DNA of 64,000 nucleotides, taken from Varibaculum vaginae (GTDB lineage Bacteria; Actinomycetota; Actinomycetes; Actinomycetales; Actinomycetaceae). Positions within the stretch are counted from its first letter, which is position 1. Every line of letters begins with the position of its first letter. Below the pieces are notes generated by a model. The model made no database searches, was not told the origin of the DNA, and saw only the letters and a list, made by a program, of their open reading frames with translations. The position numbers were made by a program, and so were the translations under genes. The stretch spans positions 1,059,774 through 1,123,773 of the forward strand of contig NZ_UWNY01000001.1 in the NCBI RefSeq assembly GCF_900604285.1, in the 5' to 3' direction. Positions 16,627 through 29,180 of the stretch are shown here, in pieces.

Positions 16627-16887
16627 AACCCTGAAATCCAGTGGGGTGTAACTCGTCCGGACGCGGTATACCCAAAACTGCAGATGACTGCCGAGAATCA
16701 TAAACCCACATGGTCCGATATCGATAGCCGGAGTTCTGGGGTCTTTAAAAATCTTGGTCGCAAAGCAACCGCAGCTACCATAATTCTGCCAAAAGAGTTG
16801 CGGAAGATATCTTCCGGCTAAGATTCCCGCCCGGTATCTTTACAATTACGGCAAAAAGATCCGCATCGAGATCTAATATAAATGCCA
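16627..16887. other. spacer before the retron
   Basis: No coding ORF seen. It contains a perfect 16-base palindrome CGGAAGATATCTTCCG at 16801-16816. A possible -10 box (TAATAT, 16873-16878) lies just upstream of the retron RNA. No attachment-site sequence was recognised, so the left boundary of the retron element is not visible. Confidence 0.4.
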
Positions 16888-17075
16888 GGGTTGAAAGGAG
16901 AGAGTCACCGACGGCTCTAGTGATGAAGGCTCGCGATTCGCGTGCCTCTGTCAATCAGGACAGTAGGGGATTACCCTGCCATTGGTTCACAGATTGACAT
17001 GGAATTTGACACGTCGTGGCAAAAGAAAGCCCTAGGCTCACAGTAGATCGTTACGGAACTCCCTCCCTTCAACCC
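16888..17075 (+). ncRNA. retron msr-msd non-coding RNA region
   Basis: A 17-base a1 sequence GGGTTGAAAGGAGAGAG (16888-16904) is complementary at 15 of 17 positions to a2 CTCCCTCCCTTCAACCC (17059-17075), which ends five bases before the RT reading frame. Enclosed hairpins include GGC-CGCG/CGCG-GCC at 16928-16946 and an 8-bp stem TGTCAATC/GATTGACA (16949-16956, 16992-16999) around a C/G-rich inner stem. Flanking a1/a2 repeats, internal stem-loops and an adjoining RT are the layout of a retron RNA. The branching guanosine is not identified. Confidence 0.7.
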
Positions 17076-17079
17076 GATA

Positions 17080-18284
17080 GTGAAACCAGCAAAAGTCGCG
17101 CCCGCGCAGATTAACTCGCTTAGGCATCTTCTGCGTTTGCCTAACCTAGAGAATCCAGAAGAATCGATTTTATATCCCTCTGCACATGTAGCAATCAGCA
17201 GCCACAATACGGCAGAAATCTGGCTCGATCACGATAAAACTACCCCGCTGCGCAAAGTACCGTTGTACTACAAGTATCGAAGTGTCCCAAAGCATTCTGG
17301 TGGCAGGCGGATATTGTCGGAACCAAGTTCCAGTTTGAAAAGTTTACAGAGATGGATACTGCGGCATTGCTTCACCGACGATATGGTTTCACCTGCCGCC
17401 TATGCGTATCGCCCAGGGCGTTCAATTGAAGACTGTGCCGCCGTACATATAGGCGCTAAATGGGCTTCTCAAGTTCGATCTCAAAGATTTCTTTGGGGGA
17501 ATTTCCGAGGCTCGAGTATATGAACTCTTTAAAGCTATTGGATATAAAGAGCTTGTCGCGTTTGAACTAGCGCGTCTGACGACTTTTCTGCCGGATAAGA
17601 ATCTAGGACGTAATATTCAGGCACTTATATAACGAAAAGTTCGAAATAACCCCGGCGGCGCGGAACTACACAAAGCTCGAATTATCAATAGATAGCAGCG
17701 ATGGTCCCTACCCGAGGTATCGAGACAGCGCGGGGAAGATCATTCGCGGAGTGCTTCCGCAAGGAGCCCCTACCTCGGGGATTATCGCCAATATTTGTGC
17801 GGGTGAACTCGATAAAGAGCTTGCGTCTTTAGCCCTGTGTAACGGTTTAAGATATTCGCGGTACTGTGATTATTTATTTTTCTCCCCGTGCCCTGATCAT
17901 GAACATTTTGACCGCGGTTTCGCAGGTTTAATGATCCGTGACGTCAATCGAGCCGTACTAAAACATGGTTTTCGGATAAACCAAGGCAAAACCAGGGTAG
18001 TACCACCTGGGTCTAAGAAGCTGATTTTGGGTCTGCAAGTGGACGATAGCGTTCGTCTGGATACCGCGTTTAAGAAAAATATTGACTACCACATACGCGG
18101 AATTGCTAAATTTGGGCTCCAGCAACACGTGGCGCACGCTAAAGGCACCCCGCCCCCAGTATTGAGTTTCCTAAACCATCTGCAAGGATTAATCGCTTTT
18201 GCGAAAGGAATCGAGCATTGGTACGGGGAAACACGGGAAACAAACTTGAGAAGGGCATTATCGATTGGTGAAGTAACGCAATAA
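17080..18284 (+). pseudogene. retron-type reverse transcriptase, frameshifted and catalytically mutated
   Basis: Reading across frames gives a full-length retron RT. It has YRSVPKHSGGRRI and LKSLQRWIL near the N-terminus, then LKFDLKDFFGGISEARVYELF (first catalytic Asp), VLPQGAPTSGIIAN, and a motif reading RYSRYCDYLFFS where YADD is expected. One frameshift lies in the GGG at 17462-17464 and a second near 17620. The catalytic motif is Y-C-D-Y, so the second Asp is also lost. An active RT is therefore very unlikely. No accessory effector gene is adjacent. Confidence 0.88.
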
Positions 18285-18380
18285 TTCCCGCGTTGCTTTC
18301 CGAAGACCGCTGCGACAACTACACGTGATCCCGATTTTGGTAGAAGCTCAATAAATTTGGCAATAACCGCAAAAATCCTA

Positions 18381-18428
18381 CTGGCGAGGGCGAACGCGCA
18401 GCCCGCGTTCGCTGCCTTCCCGCGCCAG
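18381..18428. repeat. 48-base nested hairpin repeat, copy 1
   Basis: Outer stem CTGGCGAGGG/CCCGCGCCAG and inner stem GCGAACGCG/CGCGTTCGC (perfect) form a nested palindrome. A near-identical copy is at 27724-27771. Both copies lie close to a fragment of the tmRNA 3' end, so the hairpin probably marks an element end. Confidence 0.7.
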
Positions 18429-18436
18429 CCCTTAAA

Positions 18437-18461
18437 GGTTCGATTCCCCGCGGCTCCACTA
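18437..18461 (+). other. tmRNA 3'-end fragment (att-like site), inverted
   Basis: 25 bases, GGTTCGATTCCCCGCGGCTC plus CACTA, identical to the 3' end of the ssrA gene at 28802-28826 but on the opposite strand. The rest of ssrA is absent, so this is not a gene. Phages and islands that integrate in ssrA duplicate exactly this segment, so it reads as an attachment-site remnant that was inverted or belongs to the retron element. Confidence 0.75.
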
Positions 18462-18519
18462 CGAGCACACTGAATTGATACAATTGCGCAAAACTTGAAT
18501 TTGTTGAGGATAAGGTTTT

Positions 18520-18772
18520 ATGAATAATAAATACGAAAGCGTAAGAAAATTTTTATTATATCCAGATAATATTGATGACTTTTGGGAAAGTAATGTTTTA
18601 ATTTGGATTGATTGGAGAGAAGAATGCGAATCTGTAATCAATTACTTTAATAGTGAAATAGGAAATCTTATAGAAGTAGATTTTATAAAAAATAATAAAA
18701 ATATGGTGATGACATAAAATTAAAATACAGAGCTAAAGAAATAGTTATTCCTTAAATCTTTTCGTGCAAGGT
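18520..18772 (+). pseudogene. Small AT-rich hypothetical protein, frameshifted
   Basis: An ORF of 65 codons begins MNNKYESVRKFLLYPDNIDD with GAGGATAAGG upstream. Its frame ends at 18717, but the neighbouring frame continues with plausible protein, YGDDIKLKYRAKEIVIP, to a stop near 18756. A one-base slip in the A-rich run near 18690-18705 would explain this. Composition is far more AT-rich than the core genes. Family not recognised; the acidic, aromatic-rich make-up recalls small immunity proteins, which is speculation. Confidence 0.5.
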
Positions 18773-18941
18773 TCTTCGCCTTCCGTGCTTCTTTTACATC
18801 CGCACCGAAGCTTTCAAATCCAGGGCAGTCTTTAACTTTTGCCATTTAGCATCACCCACATACATTCTATATTTCATAGATTGTCCGTGGAATGATGCCA
18901 TATGCAGTTTTCTTAAACTTTATAATTCATATTTCTGTGAA

Positions 18942-20306
18942 CTAATCAGAATTCGGAAATGTCAATAGCGTCTTACATCCATGTGGCACTACGTTTTCGA
19001 TTTGCATTGTGCCTTTATGTGCCGCCACAATCTGCTGAACAATCAAAAGCCCCAATCCATGCCGCAAGTCCAGACGCTCATCTATACTTTCCATGTAGTG
19101 CGGCTTTTCTTCTAGCTCTTGTCGCTTTTCAGGAGACAGACCTACTCCGTTATCTGCAACAGAGAGCGTAAGACCATCATGTGCATTTTCCAGATCAAGC
19201 CGAATTTCGCAGCCTCCTGGATTATGTTTGATGCTGTTCTGCACAAGGTTGTTGATTGCCCGTGAAATCAAGCGGGCATCACATTCCAGCCTGGCATTTT
19301 CTACTTCTGGCGCAAGTTCAATTTCAACCGTATAGGCATCCGAAATCCCGGAATTGAGCAGTTCCGCCACATAGGAACGAAGGAGTTTGGACAGGCGTAT
19401 TTTCTCCTTGTGAAGCGGCTGTATTTCATATTCCAGTTGAGACACTAAATTCAAATCCTGCACGAGTTCTTTGATTTTGGCGCTTTGCTTTTGCACGATC
19501 ACAGCCTGCTCTTTTACCCCCTCACTGGCTATTTTGTCTGCGGCGATCCGGTCTGCATAGCCCATAATCATAGAAAGCGGAGTTCGGATGTCATGAGAGA
19601 CCCCGCTGATCCAGTTGGCTCTGGCTTCGTTTTGCCTGCTTAATATCAGAGAGGCTTTATTTACGCTGTTCGCAATTTCGGATAACTCTCTATCAATATG
19701 GAGAGAAACGGGTTTGCCATCGGCCAATGTTTCAATGGCATCTACAATCGGTTCCGTGTTCTGGATGATCCTGCGTTTTGAAAAATAGTAGGCCAAAAAC
19801 AGGCACAGCACATCCATGCCCAACGTTCCTATCACATAGAGAGGAATTTTCTGAATAGTCTCCATGGAATAGTAGTTGCTGGTGAGCTTCATATAGCTAT
19901 TCTTTGGATACCCTAAAACTAACAATCCATCCTCTGTACTCCAGACAAAAACAGGATAATTCTCCAGATAGCCTTTGGAAAATAAAGCTACCTCTTGAAT
20001 GCTGTAATGTTGCGGCACTTCTTGTGGCACATCGAGCCGCCAGAAGCATTCGCCCGTTGACGTTAGATACATGGCCCAGATATTGTACTGGCGCAATTTC
20101 TGCTCTGCGTAATCGGGCAAACCTTCTGTGGTAGCCGCAGTAGAGGTCAGCTCAAGCATGGCGCGCGGGGACGCTTCTCCGTAATCCTCTGAAACTGTGT
20201 GATAGAAAGTCACGCCATACAGAACGACATTGACAATTACCAGGATCAAAAGAAATGCAGCGAAAGACGCCAAGTGCTTTGAAATATAGGTTCCAAAAGA
20301 TTTCAA
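18942..20306 (-). CDS. Sensor histidine kinase, lantibiotic-response type
   Basis: 454 aa. Two membrane helices (about 12-32 and 155-175) flank an extracytoplasmic sensor of ~120 residues. The H-box is GVSHDIRTPLSMIMGYAD, the N-box is INNLVQNSIKHNP, and ADNGVGLSPEK and HGLGLLIVQQI form the G boxes. This branch (SpaK/NisK-like EnvZ/PhoR relatives) controls peptide-antibiotic immunity transporters. The start is a TTG with AAGGAAGTG upstream. It follows the response-regulator stop by four bases. Sequence character is Firmicutes-like, suggesting transfer. Confidence 0.9.
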   Translation of the reverse strand: MKSFGTYISKHLASFAAFLLILVIVNVVLYGVTFYHTVSEDYGEASPRAMLELTSTAATTEGLPDYAEQKLRQYNIWAMYLTSTGECFWRLDVPQEVPQHYSIQEVALFSKGYLENYPVFVWSTEDGLLVLGYPKNSYMKLTSNYYSMETIQKIPLYVIGTLGMDVLCLFLAYYFSKRRIIQNTEPIVDAIETLADGKPVSLHIDRELSEIANSVNKASLILSRQNEARANWISGVSHDIRTPLSMIMGYADRIAADKIASEGVKEQAVIVQKQSAKIKELVQDLNLVSQLEYEIQPLHKEKIRLSKLLRSYVAELLNSGISDAYTVEIELAPEVENARLECDARLISRAINNLVQNSIKHNPGGCEIRLDLENAHDGLTLSVADNGVGLSPEKRQELEEKPHYMESIDERLDLRHGLGLLIVQQIVAAHKGTMQIENVVPHGCKTLLTFPNSD

Positions 20307-20310
20307 GGCG

Positions 20311-21012
20311 TCACTTCCTTGTAATCAGTTTATAACCCAGCCCCTTGATCGTAATCAGGGAAACGGGCTTTGAGGGATCGGCTTCAATTTTTTCCCGAAT
20401 CCGCCGTACATGGGCATTCAGGCTATTTTCATAGCCGAAAGGATTGTCGCCCCATAATGCTTCACAAAGAGCGTCAACCGTAACGATCTTTCCCTCGTTG
20501 CGGGCCAGCGTTCCCAGCAGGGTATGCTCTTTTGCGGTCAGGGGGATAATCTCGCCGCCCTTGTTGACCTCTGCCCGGCTAAAATCAATCGTACATCCAT
20601 CCAGGAAAACCCGCGGGCTGTCCTCTTTATAAGTTCGGCGCAAAATCGCATAGACACGCAGTAATAGCTCCTGCGGCATAAACGGCTTTGAAATATAATC
20701 GTCTGCTCCAAGGCCAAGACCGGCCAACTTGTCTGCTGCTTCGTCTTTTGCGGTCAGAAAGATGATTGGCACATTTGTAAAAGTGCGGAGCTGCTTCATC
20801 AGGGAAAAGCCGTCCCCATCTGGCAGCATGACATCCAAAACCATCAAGTCGGGTTTTTCTTTTTCTGCCGCTATTATAGCCTCTTTTACCGTTGCGGCAG
20901 TAAGTACCGTTTCAAAACCAGCATCGCTTAAAATATCGGATACCATTTTCAGCAAATCTGGCTCATCGTCTACAAGCAAGAGCTTCTTCCGATGCAGAAA
21001 AGAGTTGTCCAT
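20311..21012 (-). CDS. OmpR/PhoB-family response regulator
   Basis: 233 aa. Receiver domain with acidic pair DDEPD, phospho-acceptor Asp in DLMVLDVMLPDGDG, Thr in FLTAKDE and Lys in YISKPF. The C-terminal winged helix contains NSLNAHVRRIREKIE. I place the start at 21012, with GGAGG seven bases upstream, although the frame is open further. First gene of a two-gene operon with the kinase and divergent from the ABC cassette it probably controls. Confidence 0.92.
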   Translation of the reverse strand: MDNSFLHRKKLLLVDDEPDLLKMVSDILSDAGFETVLTAATVKEAIIAAEKEKPDLMVLDVMLPDGDGFSLMKQLRTFTNVPIIFLTAKDEAADKLAGLGLGADDYISKPFMPQELLLRVYAILRRTYKEDSPRVFLDGCTIDFSRAEVNKGGEIIPLTAKEHTLLGTLARNEGKIVTVDALCEALWGDNPFGYENSLNAHVRRIREKIEADPSKPVSLITIKGLGYKLITRK

Positions 21013-21074
21013 AGCGTCACCTCCCGAAAGTATTATAAAAAAGGATTTAAAGTCTGCGGAGGGCATCCTCAAAA

Positions 21075-21092
21075 AGTAAGGTAAAAGTAAGG
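21075..21092. promoter_or_regulatory. direct repeat, likely response-regulator site
   Basis: Two AGTAAGG copies (21075-21081 and 21086-21092) spaced 11 bases start to start, one helical turn, between the divergent regulator and ABC operons. Tandem half-sites at this spacing are usual for OmpR-family regulators. Confidence 0.5.
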
Positions 21093-21129
21093 ACGGGAGA
21101 ATGTAGATGTCAGGTTGAACTTGTACCGT

Positions 21130-21154
21130 AGAAGCATCGAAAGGAGATGCTTCT
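21130..21154 (+). promoter_or_regulatory. stem-loop presenting the ribosome binding site
   Basis: Perfect 9-bp stem AGAAGCATC / GATGCTTCT with a 7-base loop GAAAGGA that holds the Shine-Dalgarno purines. The start codon ATG follows the stem with no gap. Folding would place the SD in the loop and block or set its spacing, suggesting translational tuning of the ATPase. Confidence 0.6.
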
Positions 21155-21919
21155 ATGGACTACATCATTACAACGGAACATTTGACCAAGAAATATAAGA
21201 ACTTCACTTCGGTCAATCATGTTTCGCTTCATATTCGCAAGGGCAGCATTTATGGTTTTCTTGGCCCGAACGGGGCAGGCAAATCCACTACCATGAAAAT
21301 GCTGTTGGGGTTGACCGCTCCCACAAAAGGCAGCTTTACCATTGATGGGAAACAGTTTCCGCAGGATCGGATTGCCATTCTCAAAGAGATCGGCTCTTTC
21401 ATCGAAGCGCCATCTTTCTACGCAAATCTCACCGGGCGGGAAAATCTTGACATTATCCGCCGCATTTTGGGACTGCCGAAAGCTGATGTGGAAGATGCTC
21501 TGGAACTGGTAGGGCTGACCGAGTTTGGCGACCGGCTGGCAAAACAGTATTCGCTGGGAATGAAGCAACGCTTGGGCCTTGCCGGGGCGCTCTTGGGGCG
21601 TCCGCCGATTCTGATTCTGGACGAACCCACAAACGGTCTTGACCCGTCTGGTATCCACGAAATCCGCAATCTGGTAAAATCCTTGCCCAGCCTTTACGAC
21701 TGCACGGTGCTGATCTCGTCCCATATGCTGTCTGAAATCGAATTGATTGCAGATGACATTGGGATTCTCAACCACGGGCGGCTGCTGTTTGAGGGAAGCA
21801 TGAATGATCTGCGTCAATACGCCCTGCAATCCGGCTTCGCTGCGGACAATCTGGAAGATGTGTTCCTTTCTATGGTTGAGAAAGATAACAGGGACAGAAA
21901 GCAGAGGGCAAAATTATGA
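21155..21919 (+). CDS. ABC transporter ATP-binding protein, lantibiotic-immunity type
   Basis: 254 aa. Walker A GPNGAGKST, signature YSLGMKQRLGLAGALLG, Walker B ILILDEPTNGLDPSG and H-loop SSHMLSEIE. This set, with SLGMKQRL in place of SGGQ, is typical of LanF/BcrA-like ATPases. With the two following permeases it forms a LanFEG-type unit, which in the known systems removes lantibiotics from the membrane. It overlaps the next gene by 4 bases. No lantibiotic precursor or modification gene is visible nearby. Confidence 0.88.
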   Translation: MDYIITTEHLTKKYKNFTSVNHVSLHIRKGSIYGFLGPNGAGKSTTMKMLLGLTAPTKGSFTIDGKQFPQDRIAILKEIGSFIEAPSFYANLTGRENLDIIRRILGLPKADVEDALELVGLTEFGDRLAKQYSLGMKQRLGLAGALLGRPPILILDEPTNGLDPSGIHEIRNLVKSLPSLYDCTVLISSHMLSEIELIADDIGILNHGRLLFEGSMNDLRQYALQSGFAADNLEDVFLSMVEKDNRDRKQRAKL

Positions 21920-22641
21920 AAACGCTGGCAATCGAACTTCGGAAAGAAAAGCGAACCGGCGTGATTCCCGTGCTGCTGGCCGTTGGTGTCTTGGGAGCCG
22001 CCTACGCATTTGTCAATTTCATTGTGCGGAAAGACATACTTCTGAATCTGCCGCTTGCCCCGATGGATGTCTTGTTGACCCAGCTCTACGGCATGATTAT
22101 GGTGCTGAATCTGTTCGGTATCGTAATTGCTACCTGCATGATCTACAACATGGAATTTAAGGGAAGTGCCGTAAAGAAGATGTATATGCTTCCCGTCAGC
22201 GTCCCGGCCATGTATCTGTGCAAATTTCTGATTCTGACGGTCATGTTTTTGATTGCAATCGTGCTGCAAAACCTGGCACTTGCACAGATCGGAATGACGG
22301 ACTTGCCGAATGGAGCATTTGAGATGGGTACTCTGGTACGCTTTGCCGGATACTCTTTTCTCACATCCATGCCGGTACTGTCGTTTATGCTGCTGATTTC
22401 CTCGCGCTTTGAAAATATGTGGGTGCCGCTTGGAATTGGTGTTGCCGGTTTTCTGAGTGCTATGGCCCTTGCAAATTCGGGGCTGACGCTTTTGCTGGTG
22501 CATCCTTTTGTGATTATTCTGAAACCAGCAGTAGCCAAGAGCGCCCAGCCTGATTCGACGGTTGCCCTTGTCGCTTTGGTGGAAACACTGTTGTTCCTTG
22601 CTGTGGGCTTGTGGCTGGCGAAGTACAGACGCTACGAGTAA
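21916..22641 (+). CDS. ABC-2 permease of lantibiotic-immunity type, first subunit
   Basis: 241 aa with six predicted membrane helices. A short cytoplasmic N-terminus (MKTLAIELRKEKRTG) and the loop MEFKGSAVKKMYMLPVSVPAMYLCK are characteristic of LanE/LanG-like permeases. It starts inside the ATPase gene (ATGA overlap). A large antisense ORF covers it but lacks any family character. Base composition (~50% GC) and codon choice are Firmicutes-like. Confidence 0.82.
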   Translation: MKTLAIELRKEKRTGVIPVLLAVGVLGAAYAFVNFIVRKDILLNLPLAPMDVLLTQLYGMIMVLNLFGIVIATCMIYNMEFKGSAVKKMYMLPVSVPAMYLCKFLILTVMFLIAIVLQNLALAQIGMTDLPNGAFEMGTLVRFAGYSFLTSMPVLSFMLLISSRFENMWVPLGIGVAGFLSAMALANSGLTLLLVHPFVIILKPAVAKSAQPDSTVALVALVETLLFLAVGLWLAKYRRYE

Positions 22642-22657
22642 GGAGGGATAATAAGAA

Positions 22658-23428
22658 ATGAGCTTTTTGGATTTACTCAAAATCGAGTTTATGAAAGTAA
22701 AACGCTCCAAAATCGTACCCCTGATTTTCATTGCACCTTTATTGGTGGTGGTTTTCGGGGTTGCGAATTTGAGCAACTACTTTACACCGGAATACACCAA
22801 TGCGTGGCCTGCCATGTTTATTCAAAGTGCGCTTGTTTACGCCTACTATCTGCTTCCATTCAGCATGATCGTGGTTTGCGTGATGATCGCAGGACGAGAA
22901 ACAGGAAATAACGGGATTCTGAAAATGCTGGCGCTACCGGTCAGCCGCTGCGCATTATCCATTGCCAAATTCTGTGTGCTTACCTTTTATCTGTTTATGG
23001 AGATGGTGGTGTTTCTTGTCGTATTTGTAATCGCTGGGCTGATTGCGACACAGACAATGGGAGTAACAGAAACCCTGCCGATCCTATATCTTCTGAAATG
23101 GTGCTTGGCGCTGTTTCTGACTATGCTGCCGTGCATTGCGGCTATGTGGGCCATCACTGTGCTGTTTGAAAAACCGCTTCTTTCTGTGGGATTAAATCTG
23201 CTGCTTGTGATTCCCGGTGTATTGGTTGCGAATACGCCGCTGTGGATCGCCTACCCGTACTGTTACAGCGGTTATCTCGTTTCCTGCTCTCTCCATGACT
23301 TTACAGCAGAAACTTCCGACGCCGCTTTTTCGTTTTCGGTGTTTCCGTTCCTGCCGTGCGCGATTGTAGTGTTCGGCCTGTTTATCGCGCTGGCTGTCAC
23401 CCAATTTGGGAAAAAAGAAATGAGATAA
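22658..23428 (+). CDS. ABC-2 permease of lantibiotic-immunity type, second subunit
   Basis: 256 aa with six predicted membrane helices. It begins MSFLDLLKIEFMKVKRSKIV, the usual N-terminal amphipathic lead of these permeases, and carries GRETGNNGILKMLALPVSRCALSIAK after helix 2. AAGGAGGG lies upstream of the ATG. It completes an ATPase plus two-permease unit. Confidence 0.82.
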   Translation: MSFLDLLKIEFMKVKRSKIVPLIFIAPLLVVVFGVANLSNYFTPEYTNAWPAMFIQSALVYAYYLLPFSMIVVCVMIAGRETGNNGILKMLALPVSRCALSIAKFCVLTFYLFMEMVVFLVVFVIAGLIATQTMGVTETLPILYLLKWCLALFLTMLPCIAAMWAITVLFEKPLLSVGLNLLLVIPGVLVANTPLWIAYPYCYSGYLVSCSLHDFTAETSDAAFSFSVFPFLPCAIVVFGLFIALAVTQFGKKEMR

Positions 23429-23432
23429 AACT

Positions 23433-23729
23433 ATGGAAAAGAAAAAACTTCAACCAGTTAGTATCGCTGCGCTCATTGTGAGCATCATACCGCTGGCGGC
23501 TCTTGCCCCATCGCTTCTGCACCTTTCGCTGTCGGATGGAGTCCGAACCGCTTGGACCGGAGCCAATATCGCTTTTGTCCTGCTGGGTCTGATTCTTTCG
23601 GTGGTATGTGTGCGGAGCAGGGAAAGCCGCAGCATAATCAATATTGTATCAACTGCAATCAGCGTTTTTTGGCTGCTGCTGATGGTGGGAACTGTCGCAC
23701 TTGCCATGTTCCTTACTTTCGTTCAGTGA
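23433..23729 (+). CDS. Small membrane protein downstream of the ABC cassette
   Basis: 98 aa with three hydrophobic helices (about 10-30, 43-62, 70-95). Family not recognised. It lies four bases after the second permease stop, so it is part of the same transcript and may assist the transporter or be an immunity accessory; that is inference. Confidence 0.65.
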   Translation: MEKKKLQPVSIAALIVSIIPLAALAPSLLHLSLSDGVRTAWTGANIAFVLLGLILSVVCVRSRESRSIINIVSTAISVFWLLLMVGTVALAMFLTFVQ

Positions 23730-23739
23730 AGAAACAGTT

Positions 23740-24230
23740 ATGCGTAGAGTTGGGAAATTTATTGGATGATGCCTGATCGCGGTTTCTTTGCTGGCTTGTA
23801 CTGCCTGCTCCGGCCTCGATAGGTTAAGTGATAACCTAAAAGACGGAGCAGAGCAGTTGAGCGATGATGCGGTGATTGGGAAAAGCAACGCTCTTGTCAC
23901 CCCATATCAGTCCTTTGAGGGCAGCCGGACTTCGGACAACGATGCTTTTCTGTCCACCTATGACGCTTCTGTAACTGGAGTTAATGGACAGGATATTTTC
24001 GTTGTAGACACCGACCTCAAAGAAAATGAGTGCCGTGAATAGTGATCCGATACCAGTTTGATTCCCTCGACGGAGAATGTCAGCTCATTTACATCTCACC
24101 GGATTTAGAGGAACAAGTGCTTTCTGAATCTGCCAGAGGAAATGTTACTGTTCAGCTTCAAGAAGGCGCAAACTACATCGGGATTACCGGCACATATTAT
24201 TCAGGCACGATCCAGGTTACCGTGGAATAA
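23740..24230 (+). pseudogene. Lipoprotein with an in-frame stop and a frameshift
   Basis: From the ATG at 23740 the frame reads MRRVGKFIG, then TGA (23767-23769), then CLIAVSLLACTACSG, a lipoprotein signal with lipobox. A TGG to TGA change would account for the break. The mature part runs to a TAG at 24040, and a second frame from 24042 continues with IRYQFDSLDGECQLIYISP to 24230. Read across both breaks it is an exported lipoprotein of about 160 residues, co-oriented with the ABC cassette. Function unknown. Confidence 0.7.
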
Positions 24231-24243
24231 GCGACAGAATGAT

Positions 24244-24603
24244 ATGAAGCGAATGCTGATAGTAGACGACAACACGGAATTTCTGGAAACCCTGTCAACC
24301 GTGCTATCCAGTGATTTTGATACGATTACGGCCACAGGCGTCAAGGACGCATGGAATATTCTTCAAGCAATTACCGTAGATGCAATATGTTCCGATTTCA
24401 ATATGAAAGCTGGCACAGGATTGGATTTGCTTGAAGATATTCGTCAAAAAGGAATCTCTGTTCCTTTCCTGCTTATGTCTAGCAACGACGATTCCCTGCT
24501 TGAAACGCAGACAAAATTTTATGGCGGCGTTTTCTGCTGTAAAACAGATTGTGATTTGATTGCAAAAATAAAGGCACTAAATAAATCTATCTTCTTCATG
24601 TAA
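24244..24603 (+). CDS. Single-domain response regulator
   Basis: 119 aa receiver domain only. Acidic pair in LIVDDNTEF, phospho-acceptor Asp in AICSDFNMKAG, Ser in LLMSSNDD and Lys in CCKTDCD. No output domain follows before the stop, so it is either a stand-alone CheY/Spo0F-like regulator or a truncated one. The start chosen is the ATG just before KRMLIVDDN; the open frame upstream overlaps the lipoprotein remnant. Confidence 0.75.
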   Translation: MKRMLIVDDNTEFLETLSTVLSSDFDTITATGVKDAWNILQAITVDAICSDFNMKAGTGLDLLEDIRQKGISVPFLLMSSNDDSLLETQTKFYGGVFCCKTDCDLIAKIKALNKSIFFM

Positions 24604-24624
24604 AAAATAAAGGAAACTATAGTT

Positions 24625-24852
24625 GACGAGAAGTCTTTTTATGACCTATATGCTTATGTTAGTAAATTGGAAAGTATAACTCATGCAGAATTAAGAGATT
24701 TATATTTTATTCAAAATCAAGTAATGAGGCATATTGTTTACCACTTTGATCAAAATGATATGAGTGAAATTCTAAACTTTCCGACAGAATACTGGAAGTA
24801 TATTGACCTTTTAGATCATGCTATAAATAATATTTGTTCTATTGTTATATAG
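24625..24852 (+). pseudogene. AT-rich hypothetical ORF, probable 3' remnant
   Basis: The frame is open from just after the 24603 gene and reads DEKSFYDLYAYVSKLESITHAELRDLYFIQNQ to a stop at 24852. No ATG or GTG occurs upstream; the only candidate start is a TTG at 24667 without a ribosome binding site. It looks like the tail of a longer AT-rich gene. Not recognised. Confidence 0.4.
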
Positions 24853-24877
24853 TTAACTCCCAGTTTGTCGAGGTAAT

Positions 24878-24914
24878 ACTTTTTAACGATAGCCTTAAGC
24901 TATCGTTAAAAAGT
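24878..24914. repeat. 16-bp perfect inverted repeat
   Basis: Arms ACTTTTTAACGATAGC and GCTATCGTTAAAAAGT around a 5-base centre. It lies between the Firmicutes-like cassette and the GC-rich GH3 fragment. It could be a bidirectional terminator or the scar of a mobile element. Confidence 0.65.
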
Positions 24915-24992
24915 TCATGGATATGTTCCTAAATACGAACGTAGCTACTTGACATACTTAGTGTTCACTCGTTTCATGTGGAAATATGAGCA

Positions 24993-25975
24993 GTGTCTGA
25001 AGGCGGAGGTTCGTCCAAGGTCGACCCGCTGTACACCGTCGACCCGGCTCCGGGCATGGAGGACGTGCTCAAGGAGATGGGCTCGGAAGCCAAGGTCAAC
25101 CTGGTTGTCGTTGTCAACGACCTGTCCAACCTGGACGAGGCCAAGGCGGCCGCCAAGGAAGCCGATCTGGTTGTTCTGATGGCTGGCCTGGTGGCCACCG
25201 AGGGCGCTGACATGAAGAACGCCAACATGTTCAACGACCAGAACAAGATGCTCGACGAGCTGCTTGGCCTCAACGACAAGACCGTCGTTGTGATGAAGGA
25301 CTCCGCTCCCGTGCTCATGCCTTGGCAGGACAAGGCCCCGACCATCCTTGAGGTTTGGAACCAGGGCACTGAGGACGGCCACGTCGTCGCCGATCTTCTC
25401 TTCGGCCGCATCAACCCGTCCGGCAAGGTTTCGACCACCTACCCGGCTCGCGAAGAGGACACCATCTACTCCAACCATCCCGAGCGCCACCCAGGCGTGG
25501 AAGAGGATGCCGGCTACCCGGTTATTTGCTACTCCGAGGGTTGAATATGGGCTACCGCTGGTGGCAGTCGCAGGGCATCAAGCCGCTGTTCGCTTTCGGG
25601 CACGGCCTGTCCTACACCACCTTCGAGCTCAGCGATGTTGCGGTAGACACGAAGAAGCTCACCGACGCCCCCGTCACCGTGACCGCCAAGGTGACCAACA
25701 CCGGCGATCGTGCTGGCGCTGAGGTCGTCCAGGTCTACCTGGGCATCCCCGAGGACGGTCAGCCGCCGAAGCGTCTGGTTGGTTTCCAGAAGGTTCAGCT
25801 CGAGCCCGGCGAGAGCAAGACCGCGACCATCGTCATCGACCCGGCCGCCACCAACCACCCGTTCGGTGTCTGGTGCAAGGCTGCGGAAGATTTCGTTATC
25901 CGCGATGGCGAATACAAGGTTTACGTGGGCACCTCCAGCGAGGACACCCCGTTCATCAAAACCATCACGCGCTAA
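24993..25975 (+). pseudogene. Beta-glucosidase (GH3) C-terminal fragment, truncated and frameshifted
   Basis: The first ORF (to 25544) reads as the GH3 C-terminal alpha/beta domain: EGGGSSKVDPLYTVDP, LVVLMAGLVATEGADM, WNQGTEDGHVVADLLFGRINPSGK. The second (from 25526) continues with NMGYRWWQSQGIKPLFAFGHGLSYTTFE and the fibronectin-III-like domain. The frames would join if one T were restored at about 25541. The N-terminal catalytic domain is missing altogether, and similarity begins abruptly near 24997. The high GC and lack of AT codons contrast with the flanks and recall Bifidobacterium. Confidence 0.85.
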
Positions 25976-25988
25976 GCTCGCGTTAATC

Positions 25989-26016
25989 GGAGGAGCACCT
26001 TTATGGGTGCTCCTCC
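25989..26016 (+). terminator. terminator after the GH3 fragment
   Basis: GGAGGAGCACC / GGGTGCTCCTCC stem with a 5-base loop, followed by TTTTAT. Strong intrinsic terminator. Confidence 0.88.
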
Positions 26017-26070
26017 TTTTATGTTTCCGGGAGATCCGCTTCCCTTTTAATAACAACGCGGTTGTCTAGA

Positions 26071-26667
26071 ATGACTGTTGTGACTACCTCTCGTGATTCT
26101 TCGGTTTTGGTGTTGGTTGATCTACAGAACGATTTTCTTCCCGGTGGATCGCTCGGCACTAAGATGGGCAATGTTGCTGCCGCCGCCGTCGCGGACTATG
26201 TGCGCGAGCATGGCAATGACTACGCCTACATCGTGGCTACCAAAGACTGGCACATCGACCCGGGCACGCACTTCTCGGATAACCCGGATTTCGTGGACTC
26301 CTGGCCCCCGCACTGCGTGAAGAGCACCACGGGCGCTGACTTTGGCCCCCAGATCGACGCATCTGAGGTTGACGAGGTCTTTTACAAGGGCGAATACGAG
26401 GCCGCCTACTCTGGCTTCGAGGGCCACGCATCTTCGGGCGAAACGATGTCAGCATGGCTTAAGGATCGCAACATCACCCACCTGGACGTGGTCGGCATCG
26501 CCACGGATCACTGCGTGCGGGCAACCGCCCTGGATGCCCTTGACGACGGCTTCACCGTGACGGTATTCGCGGACAAGACCGCCCCGGTCTCCCAAGAACG
26601 AGCGGCAGAATCGCTGAGGGAAATTGAAGCCGCGGGCGGAAGGGTGCGAGAAAAAGTCCCGGCTTAA
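26071..26667 (+). CDS. pncA: Nicotinamidase (isochorismatase superfamily)
   Basis: 198 aa from the ATG at 26071; a TTG three codons upstream is an alternative. The catalytic triad is visible: Asp in LVDLQNDFLPGG, Lys in ATKDWHID, Cys in ATDHCVRATALDA. Metal-binding residues lie in DWHIDPGTH. The enzyme deaminates nicotinamide to nicotinate, the substrate of the pncB product encoded 3 kb downstream. The ribosome binding site is weak. GC-rich codon use matches the GH3 fragment upstream rather than the core genes, so it may have arrived with it. Confidence 0.9.
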   Translation: MTVVTTSRDSSVLVLVDLQNDFLPGGSLGTKMGNVAAAAVADYVREHGNDYAYIVATKDWHIDPGTHFSDNPDFVDSWPPHCVKSTTGADFGPQIDASEVDEVFYKGEYEAAYSGFEGHASSGETMSAWLKDRNITHLDVVGIATDHCVRATALDALDDGFTVTVFADKTAPVSQERAAESLREIEAAGGRVREKVPA

Positions 26668-26741
26668 AGGCCTGCCACGACACCACGCTGCGTACGCTCC
26701 AGGAGGGTTATTTTGTTCCATGCGTTTTATTCATAGTGTGT

Positions 26742-26993
26742 CTACATCCGCAACACGAGAACTGTTTTTTGTTCTGGTAATACTTTGTAGACCAGATGGT
26801 GTTGGATATTGATTCTTCGTGAATAGTAGCCGGATAGGTTTCCGACAAGCTTTTCGTAGCGTGGCGGATTAGTGAATGGATCTTGAGCTAAAACGTTTAA
26901 TGGTTTTTGTGTTTTTGGTTTAAGACCGCTACTGGCAAGTTTTTTGGCGTCTTTTTGTGCGGCTTTTGAGTAGACGATTTTCCAGTTACTCAC
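26742..26993 (-). CDS. yoeB: Txe/YoeB-type mRNA endonuclease toxin
   Basis: 83 aa of the RelE superfamily. The C-terminal RRINIQHHLVYKV core is the YoeB/Txe signature, with the catalytic region around His-His-x3-Tyr and the final VLVLRM. Toxins of this family cleave mRNA at the ribosome. It overlaps the antitoxin gene by 4 bases, the usual order with antitoxin first. It lies within the accessory region. Confidence 0.93.
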   Translation of the reverse strand: MSNWKIVYSKAAQKDAKKLASSGLKPKTQKPLNVLAQDPFTNPPRYEKLVGNLSGYYSRRINIQHHLVYKVLPEQKTVLVLRM

Positions 26994-27232
26994 CAGTCCA
27001 GCCTATTGCTAGCAGCTTCAATACCTTCTTGGTCGGCCTCGATGACCGATTGGCTCATACCTGGGATCGAGTTTAGGTAAAGGGTTTCTTGGATTGCGCT
27101 CCAATCGTCTTCACCTATTAATACTGCGTTGCCACGTTTGCCGGTGATGGTGATGGTTTGAGATTCTTCGTTGGCTTGATCTACGAGTCGGTATAGGTTG
27201 GCTCGGGCTTTGGTGACACTTATGGCAGTCAT
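26990..27232 (-). CDS. yefM: Phd/YefM family antitoxin
   Basis: 80 aa. The N-terminal AISVTKARANLYRLVDQANEE is the Phd/YefM DNA-binding fold, and ITGKRGNAVLIGEDDWSAIQETLYL is the family core. It neutralises the following YoeB toxin and should repress its own promoter; a palindromic site lies 20 bases upstream. Confidence 0.93.
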   Translation of the reverse strand: MTAISVTKARANLYRLVDQANEESQTITITGKRGNAVLIGEDDWSAIQETLYLNSIPGMSQSVIEADQEGIEAASNRLDW

Positions 27233-27252
27233 TTTTCTTCCTTCTTTAGCTA

Positions 27253-27268
27253 GTACGGTTTAACGTAC
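27253..27268. promoter_or_regulatory. possible YefM operator
   Basis: Palindrome with arms GTACG and CGTAC around GTTTAA, upstream of yefM. YefM-type operators contain TGTAC half-sites, so this fits autoregulation. Confidence 0.45.
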
Positions 27269-27304
27269 ATGAATGAGCATAGCTGTAATTTAGGTGAAAA
27301 ATAA

Positions 27305-27328
27305 CCACCTGTTTTCAGGTGGGTTTTG
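27305..27328 (+). terminator. intrinsic terminator
   Basis: CCACCTG - TTTT - CAGGTGG followed by GTTTT. A short, strong hairpin on the plus strand with no obvious gene ending here. It may protect the element end from read-through. Confidence 0.6.
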
Positions 27329-27529
27329 GGTATTAACCCATAAACAAGCCTATTTTCGCCCATTGGTGGATAGAAATACTTTTTGGCGCTTGTTTATCGG
27401 AACCTTCCGTCAGCCTAGGAATCTGACAAACTGTGCCGAGCCAGCGACGTTTCCAACAGTTAACCAGCACAGCCACCTAAATCGATAAAACAACCCCGAC
27501 AAGGCAAAACGCCAGGTTTTAGGGCATAA

Positions 27530-27673
27530 AAATAGGACGCTCACTTTGTATCAAAATGAGCGTCCTAATGGTGCAGGTAATCCCTGACGGGATTACGCAC
27601 TATTTCCTCACTCTCACTAACAAGCAAACTTGCTTGCCGTTCGAGTTCGTCATGGTGGAGCCGCGGGGAATCG
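27530..27673. repeat. 144-bp direct repeat, left copy (att-type)
   Basis: About 97% identical (roughly 4 differences) to 28679-28822. It contains three inverted repeats: AGGACGCTCA/TGAGCGTCCT, GGTAATCCC/GGGATTAC and CAAGCAA/TTGCTTG. It ends in the tmRNA 3'-end core GGAGCCGCGGGGAATCG. In this copy the strand complementary to the core reads ...CTCCACCA, so the native CCA end is kept. Confidence 0.85.
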
Positions 27674-27723
27674 GCGGTGCTGCGCACCAGCAAGGGTTTT
27701 CGGAGCACAGCCTCCAAAAATCA

Positions 27724-27771
27724 CTGGCGCGGGCGAACGCTCAGCCCGCGTTCGCGACCTTCCCGCGCCTG
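27724..27771. repeat. 48-base nested hairpin repeat, copy 2
   Basis: Near-identical to 18381-18428: outer stem CTGGCGCGGG/CCCGCGCCTG and inner stem GCGAACGC/GCGTTCGC. It lies 50 bases inside the left end of the mini-element. Confidence 0.7.
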
Positions 27772-28094
27772 CTGGATTGGCTTGGTATCTAATGCCTGTG
27801 TTTGTTGTTCTGGTTCTACAAATTCTGTTTTCAGTATGCTAAACGTATACCGTGTAATGGTAAGTTAATTTGCGGTTAGAGGAGAGTAGAAAACGAAAGG
27901 AGGGTGCGGTTGCAGGACTACAGATAAAACTGACCTGGGGAACCTGTTAGCCCTAGCCGGTCTACTACTTGCCTTGTGGGATCACTTCCATAAAGACGAA
28001 AACTAGCCGGTAAGGTCTGGCGGGGTCGAAATAGAAAGTAGCTACTTCGACCCCGCCTAGGTCAGATTCTACCAGCCAACACCGCTAAAGAAAC

Positions 28095-28283
28095 ATGAAT
28101 CGAAAAAAGTTTAAGGGACATCTCGGAACCTTAGGGTGTCTTATCGCTATTGGTGGCGCTAACTTAGCCATCACTGACCTGCAGGCTGCCACCTGGAAGA
28201 CGGTAACCATGTGGGTTATTTGGGTCATCGCCATGGGAGTATGTCTATATGATCTGAGCGCTGGAGGTAAAGGCGATGAATGA
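28095..28283 (+). CDS. Small two-helix membrane protein
   Basis: 62 aa, not recognised. A basic N-terminus (MNRKKFKGH) is followed by two hydrophobic helices (about 10-30 and 37-55) and a short GGKGDE tail. It overlaps the helix-turn-helix gene by 8 bases, which supports both as real. Cargo of the mini-element. Confidence 0.55.
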   Translation: MNRKKFKGHLGTLGCLIAIGGANLAITDLQAATWKTVTMWVIWVIAMGVCLYDLSAGGKGDE

Positions 28284-28482
28284 GACTTTCTTGGCGTTGC
28301 GTGATGTAGCGCGCCTAATCGGTGTCACTCGCGGTACGGCGGCATCTTATAAAGCTAAGGGGATGCTTCCAGCCCCTGACGTAGTGATTGGTCTTGACGA
28401 CCGGGCGGTCGCTGGGTGGCGTAGGGAAGCAATCGTTAAATGGAATGAGGGGCGTCCTGGGAAAGGCAACCATAGTCGATAG
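28276..28482 (+). CDS. Helix-turn-helix protein, excisionase/AlpA-like
   Basis: 68 aa. Residues 5-30 (FLALRDVARLIGVTRGTAASYKAKGMLP) form a MerR/AlpA-type helix-turn-helix, followed by DVVIGLDDRAVAGWRREAIVKWNEGRPGKG, the pattern of small actinobacterial excisionases. Such proteins direct excision of integrated elements or regulate them. It sits in a mini-element beside an ssrA attachment site. Confidence 0.7.
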   Translation: MNETFLALRDVARLIGVTRGTAASYKAKGMLPAPDVVIGLDDRAVAGWRREAIVKWNEGRPGKGNHSR

Positions 28483-28678
28483 ATAGCGTTTTTGGGTATG
28501 CGAAACCACTCCTTCCGGGTGACGGTTCGGCATGTTTTTCTTCCATAGGATGGGTGGGAGTTGATATCTACCCGAGCGATGCTGTTAATCAGTAACAAAA
28601 GCGGGTGATTTTTGGGTCAAGAGAACAACGAAAAAGCGATATTGATGCCCAACTGATACGTTCGAGTGGAGGAAAATA
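28483..28678. other. spacer inside the mini-element
   Basis: No ORF with coding character and no strong hairpin, apart from short complementary segments near 28500-28530. The right direct repeat begins at 28679. Confidence 0.4.
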
Positions 28679-28822
28679 AAATAGGACGCTCACTTTGTAT
28701 CAAAATGAGCGTCCTAGTGGTGCTGGTAATCCCTGACGGGATTACGCACTATTTCCTCACTCTCACTAACAAGCAAACTTGCTTGCCGTTCGAGCTCGTC
28801 ATAGTGGAGCCGCGGGGAATCG
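28679..28822. repeat. 144-bp direct repeat, right copy (att-type)
   Basis: Right partner of 27530-27673. Its last ~20 bases are the 3' end of ssrA itself. Read on the ssrA strand the end is ...GGCTCCACTA, so CCA has become CTA in this copy. Confidence 0.85.
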
Positions 28823-29180
28823 AACCCCGGTCCAACTGGTACTCCTGCATTCTTCTCCGTGCGCAGTTTGCCTGAGCTTTTTCTCAGCCTGAATCTACTT
28901 GGCAAACTAGAGATTCTATAGGCTCAGTCACTGTAAAGTGTCGCTGCAATCCCATTGACGAAAACTGCAGCCAGTGGCTCCTGAAAAACGACGCCAGGAA
29001 CCGAGGTAGAAGCACCCTCGGAGCTGACGGACTTTTAAAGGCTCTGCTTAAGCAGCTAGAGCGAAGTCAGTGCGGTTATGTTTAGCACTTATTGTTTTGT
29101 GAAGGACGTTAGCGAGATGACTCCACATTCTCGGCACGCTTCTCTGCAACCAATACCAGCTGTCGAAACCGATCGACCCC
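28802..29180 (-). ncRNA. ssrA: transfer-messenger RNA
   Basis: The 5' end GGGGTCGATCGGTTTCGACAG (first base 29180) pairs with the 3' CGGCTCC to form the tRNA-like acceptor, and the T-arm GGTTCGATTCC lies near the 3' end. The tag ORF (29048-29113, minus strand) starts with GCT-AAC after the pseudoknot region and ends RTDFALAA-stop, the typical proteolysis tag. It rescues stalled ribosomes. The encoded 3' end is ACTA, not ACCA, so CCA must be repaired or added after transcription. The gene is the target of at least one integration event. Confidence 0.95.

Follow-up and report, generated by a model that had tools for sequence, protein, structure and literature searches.

CIMEs (cis-mobilizable elements), as defined for the ICESt1/3 family (PMC5704250), derive from an ICE or IME, are flanked by attL and attR, have lost their integration and transfer genes, are mobilized in cis by a related element and lie in tandem (accreted) with an island at the same gene end. 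Genomic islands at tRNA and tmRNA genes, of the Islander type (PMC4383910), insert at the 3′ end of the gene, which is restored while a displaced fragment is left at the far end, and carry their own tyrosine integrase. Phage satellites (PICI and PICMI) are small, depend on other elements and encode an Xis/AlpA-type HTH protein; PICIs carry an integrase together with packaging and replication genes. We analyzed a locus with likenesses to each of these in a 64,000-nucleotide stretch (the window) of the 2.0-Mb genome of Varibaculum vaginae, using one genome per species for comparison (213 family genomes, and five same-genus genomes for synteny).

Boundaries and contents of a 1.15-kb mini-element at ssrA

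The integration target, the ssrA tmRNA gene, is located at positions 28804–29180 on the minus strand (ARAGORN; Rfam RF00023, E = 5.8e-60), and the right-hand repeat therefore holds the last 19 bp of the tmRNA. The direct repeats of 144 bp that the original prediction placed around a 1.15-kb unit at this 3′ end are 145 bp each (27529–27673 and 28678–28822) and 97% identical, far above chance, with four differences (27568/28717, 27575/28724, 27646/28795 and 27654/28803). Each repeat consists of ~19 bp of the tmRNA 3′ end and 126 bp of sequence 3′ of ssrA, and the length of the mini-element between repeat-matched ends is 1,149 bp. Sequence comparison confirmed that both repeats end in the tmRNA core. 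The proximal core, CGATTCCCCGCGGCTCCA, is the terminal part of the tmRNA (28805–28822, minus strand), and the distal core (27656–27673, minus strand) is an exact 18-bp copy of it, so that attL and attR are kept as direct tmRNA cores within the 145-bp repeats. Joining 27673 to 28823 in silico removes the mini-element and yields an intact tmRNA that ARAGORN still recognizes; insertion at the 3′ end, a restored gene and a displaced fragment are thus all found, as in tmRNA islands. A search of the genome revealed only two near-full-length copies of the repeat, both in the window. The body of the mini-element has no match in the other 212 of the 213 family genomes and no DNA match in the plasmid and phage databases. 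The mini-element is a discrete insertion.

The contents also agree with the original prediction. There is no integrase between the repeats, only small ORFs, and no PF00589 match within or near the mini-element: it lacks the integration and transfer genes that CIMEs have lost, and the tyrosine integrase that tmRNA islands carry. The ORF of a 62-aa hydrophobic membrane peptide (28095–28283, plus strand) overlaps by 8 nt that of a 68-aa excisionase-like HTH protein (28276–28482, plus strand). The HTH protein matches the profiles PHROG 597 (E = 6e-15) and PHROG 66 (excisionase, E = 9e-5). Its AlphaFold model (pLDDT 87) resembles MerR-type winged helices, and its Foldseek matches include the RdfS excisionase and Pukovnik Xis, none of them below E = 0.001. 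Fold and profiles thus agree weakly with the excisionase (RDF) family of small winged-helix proteins encoded beside integrases; relatives of the protein adjoin integrases, whereas the copy in the window does not. It probably belongs to an excisionase-like family. A second hydrophobic peptide frame, which has no start codon (27908–28003, plus strand; sequence and tblastn), has probably decayed, and a 39-nt near-palindromic hairpin, 82% self-complementary (28019–28057), also occurs elsewhere in the genus.

Relatives of the HTH protein are found beside integrases at both ssrA and tRNA-Ala. Within the genus, tRNA-Ala integrases precede a membrane peptide whose frame overlaps that of an Xis 44–48% identical to the one in the mini-element, and further relatives occur in actinobacterial prophage contigs. 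In one same-genus genome (G004) an integrase lies directly 3′ of ssrA and is 55–57% identical to the integrases behind tRNA-Ala(CGC); in a MAG labelled Actinomycetaceae, ssrA is followed by a broken integrase and then by a peptide overlapping Xis. Many IMG/VR contigs, like the integrase elements of the genus, share the layout of a peptide overlapping xis. The pair in the mini-element is oriented towards ssrA, opposite to most relatives, and a second G004 pair, at tRNA-Ala(CGC), is oriented likewise. Small membrane peptide genes overlap the starts of Xis-like genes across actinobacterial integrative elements (loci L137, L138, L144, L149, L150 and L163).

Just inside the distal core we found 100 of the 114 bp of a conserved three-hairpin arm (27673–27772, plus strand; structure z = −4.5), with 96% identity to the arms of ssrA and tRNA-Ala islands throughout the genus and without the inner 14 bp present in full copies. 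Genomes of the genus have 2–7 copies of the arm each. Complete arms adjoin a displaced core whose type is that of the local target, tRNA-Ala(TGC), (CGC) or (GGC), and the arm in the window does the same at ssrA. An integrase lies immediately behind the arm in G003, and the integrase-bearing relatives share arm, Xis and membrane peptide with the mini-element. Gene-free units of ~185 bp, made of a terminator, an inverted T-arm and the three-hairpin arm, lie at tRNA-Ala(TGC) in G004 (L087) and at tRNA-Ala(CGC) in G005 (L088), with the 3′ end of the host tRNA itself directly repeated on either side. A 34-kb island at tRNA-Ala(TGC) in G003 (C1:2109434-2143871) carries an integrase at its far end, where a core of the tRNA-Ala(CGC) type adjoins the arm, possibly a case of target switching.

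Comparison with the five same-genus genomes revealed conservation of the left flank, up to ~18337, and of everything right of 29271. The stretch between the reverse transcriptase gene of this flank and ssrA varies by species (46 kb in G003, 15 kb in G004, ~7 kb in G001 and G005), and the presence of different inserts beside ssrA in every species marks ssrA as an insertion hotspot in the genus. The insert in the window is a 9.2-kb island (18459–27655; synteny and Pfam) followed by the 1.15-kb mini-element. The larger island encodes an ABC transporter, a two-component system, a YefM-YoeB-like pair and an isochorismatase (Pfam), and no integrase was found in it. Its far end is a shortened three-hairpin arm that ends in an inverted tmRNA-type core (18380–18458, plus strand; sequence comparison). 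Such an inverted core joined to the arm was observed at the far end of ssrA islands in the window (18437–18461), G001 (C5:13310), G002 (C8:18906) and G003 (C1:922995); the inverted T-arm site of G001 is otherwise intact, with just a 20-bp footprint left. The inverted core beside the arm (at 18441, and in G001, G002 and G003) may represent a second att site or the product of integration into a decoy T-arm. The native left flank holds a reverse transcriptase gene (16753–18337, plus strand; PF00078; 91–92% to G002, G003 and G004) that is broken here (17080–18284); its position near ssrA is kept in G002–G004. A link to a retron ncRNA was rejected, as the reverse transcriptase belongs to a native flank common to relatives and, in G003, is separated from the arm by ~2 kb.

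A terminator and a structured module behind tRNA and tmRNA genes

The original prediction described three nested inverted repeats within the direct repeats as possible recombinase or excisionase arm sites. The inverted repeats exist (middle part z = −5.2), but their assignment as arms is contradicted, as the outer one is a terminator and the inner part is a module that also occurs at many tRNA and tmRNA ends with no visible island. They are probably the ssrA terminator and a structured module of ~84 bp, and an island arm is more plausibly represented by the 114-bp three-hairpin stretch inside the distal core. The outermost hairpin (28682–28716, minus strand; distal copy at 27533–27567, minus strand, by sequence comparison) has copies in other genera, 92–98% identical, that immediately follow tRNA-Ala, tRNA-Gly and tmRNA genes, which identifies it as a terminator. 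The module separates terminator and tmRNA by an 84-bp insertion: G002 reads CTCC-AC-CACTAGGACGC, whereas the window reads CTCC-AC-[84 bp]-CACTAGGACGC. In the distal repeat the same 84-bp insert precedes CATTAGGACGC, which is the flank of G005. The proximal module (28720–28805, minus strand), whose first two nucleotides are the tmRNA end AC, scores 87.7 bits (R1) and 88.8 bits (R2) with an RNA fold z of −5.2; the distal module (27571–27656, minus strand) scores 87 bits (R1) and 86.6 bits (R2) with z = −5.0.

Alignments of modules were built from 12 copies, then 36 distinct and then 80 distinct copies. In the set of 80, each of the 29 pairs shows compensatory changes and 92.2% of cells are paired. 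Covariation scores 0.652, versus 0.211 in shuffles and ~0.07 in slid structures; these figures are tilted towards the model, to which the alignment was fitted. The module of the window, folded as a single sequence with no alignment, gave the same stems, and in an independent shuffle test of the first helix 77/108 pairs were found versus 59 expected, a value reached in 0/20,000 shuffles. The module had no covariance-model match in Rfam 15. A hammerhead ribozyme was rejected: the module core GATGAGTCC...GGACGACGAAA is similar, but the invariant CUGAUGA is absent and there is no Rfam match.

The module family occurs in 24 of the 213 family genomes (9/36 genera), and in one genome of another family it lies in tandem behind tRNA-Pro. 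About a third (27/82) of the distinct module places lie directly against the 3′ end of a tRNA or tmRNA gene, in most cases sharing its last two nucleotides, and 11 more follow another module; many of the tRNA and tmRNA ends concerned have no visible island. Behind tRNA-Val, five species have one to four full or partial modules and a sixth has only a hairpin remnant. Besides the two copies in the window, modules were recorded at G000:C5:304885-305228, at 18 places in G024 and at G260:C94:3261-3426. Five G024 loci (L222, L223, L224, L225 and L232) contain divergent module pairs, spaced by ~50 bp and without a neighboring tRNA, several in near-identical copies, and look like a miniature element made of two modules.

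We regard the module family as a candidate new family of RNAs or mobile elements; the module itself could act as a specialized terminator or trailer RNA, or be an insertion unit of folded DNA. Only tentatively, we suggest that this trailer half of the repeat belongs to an undescribed family of structured units of ~84–95 nt that would insert precisely behind the discriminator base and first C of a tRNA or tmRNA gene, stack in tandem (0 to 4 at tRNA-Val in one genus) and spread between genera. Such a unit would be a miniature element specific for tRNA ends, either mobile or a trailer RNA, and islands would carry it as part of their att ends. The literature searched, mainly open-access, describes no structured module at tRNA ends beyond a Methanopyrus palindrome. 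The module may be new.

Origin of the mini-element

We consider the mini-element to be a non-autonomous, CIME-type island at ssrA, derived from an element with a tyrosine integrase targeting tRNA-Ala and tmRNA genes and lying in tandem with the larger island, with a probability of roughly 0.7. The exact tmRNA core at both ends, the intact tmRNA after removal and a body unique among 213 genomes support this reading. Further support comes from the ssrA integrase of G004 and its kinship to tRNA-Ala(CGC) integrases, the peptide and Xis pairs at tRNA-Ala and in the MAG, the arms next to displaced cores at three tRNA-Ala genes and ssrA, the differing ssrA inserts of the other species and the gene-free units of G004 and G005. 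The ancestor would have been a tyrosine-integrase element aiming at tRNA-Ala and tmRNA 3′ ends. On the ssrA side its remnant would have retained the core, module and terminator, and on the far side the core and the 114-bp arm; the membrane-peptide/excisionase pair would have been kept while integrase and cargo were lost. The 145-bp repeats would be the matching ssrA-side ends of two tandem islands, each supplying ssrA with a trailer and terminator, and an integrase arriving with another ssrA element could still excise the mini-element. We infer both the origin by deletion and the order in which the islands arrived. Several points count against a CIME-type origin: no strain with an integrase-bearing parental form of the mini-element was found, the peptide and xis pair is oriented unlike that of most relatives, the arm is short of its inner 14 bp, and the 126 bp past the core are more than is usual for a shared att end. 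Homologous recombination between the repeats could also have contributed to the present form of the locus.

A trailer of this length inside the repeat would instead suit a tandem duplication in place, of the ssrA end together with its trailer, the gap having later been filled by unrelated DNA, and tandem modules are common behind tRNA genes. However, the interior begins with an island arm exactly at the core, its gene pair is typical of integrase elements and the flanks of the two repeats match different relatives, one G002 (CACTAGG) and the other G005 (CATTAGG), which together make a duplication distinctly improbable. A mobile system based on RNA or ssDNA, with arm and module as its ends, might have assembled the mini-element in place of a tyrosine integrase; strong module covariation, precise module insertion after the tRNA end and the arm structure (z = −4.5) fit such a system, but no candidate enzyme was found and the islands are already explained by integrases and Xis, so we consider it highly improbable.

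The original prediction proposed a satellite mobilized by a larger ssrA-targeting element. A functional satellite that keeps an excisionase and the two att sites, and that is excised and moved by whatever integrase such an element brings into the cell, would account for the intact Xis-like gene with its membrane-peptide partner and for the perfect 18-bp cores, and an ssrA-type integrase does exist in the same genus. The window genome, however, was found to contain no integrase of the ssrA/tRNA-Ala clade that could act as helper, and its sole non-Xer tyrosine integrase found (C6:1181511) is 21% identical to the ssrA-type enzyme. The mini-element is moreover present in a single copy, its body has no relative in the family genomes or the phage and plasmid databases, and one peptide frame lacks a start. 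A helper-mobilized satellite is thus possible but gained no support from these searches, and we judge it unlikely.

Comparison with described systems

Under the CIME-type reading, the mini-element (1.15 kb), like the ~185-bp units in relatives, is a very small example of tmRNA and tRNA islands decaying or becoming dependent on others, in which an excisionase was retained after integrase loss. The structured module is the larger prize, as a covarying marker of tRNA ends in at least 10 genera; since empty and filled module sites exist at the same genes, its mode of insertion and effect on tRNA maturation are directly testable. The module resembles the structured RNAs of Rfam in its compensatory base changes and differs from them in belonging to no Rfam 15 family.

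With CIMEs of the ICESt1/3 family the mini-element shares its flanking att sites, absence of integration genes and tandem position at one gene end; it differs in its size of just 1.15 kb, in the excisionase-like gene that it keeps and in its location at ssrA in an actinomycete, and cis-mobilization is putative in its case. Islander-type islands are matched in the restored tmRNA 3′ end and the displaced fragment, whereas the mini-element has no integrase and its multi-hairpin arm is common to different targets. Phage satellites are matched in small size, dependence on others and an Xis/AlpA-type HTH protein; unlike them, the mini-element encodes neither an integrase nor replication or packaging genes.
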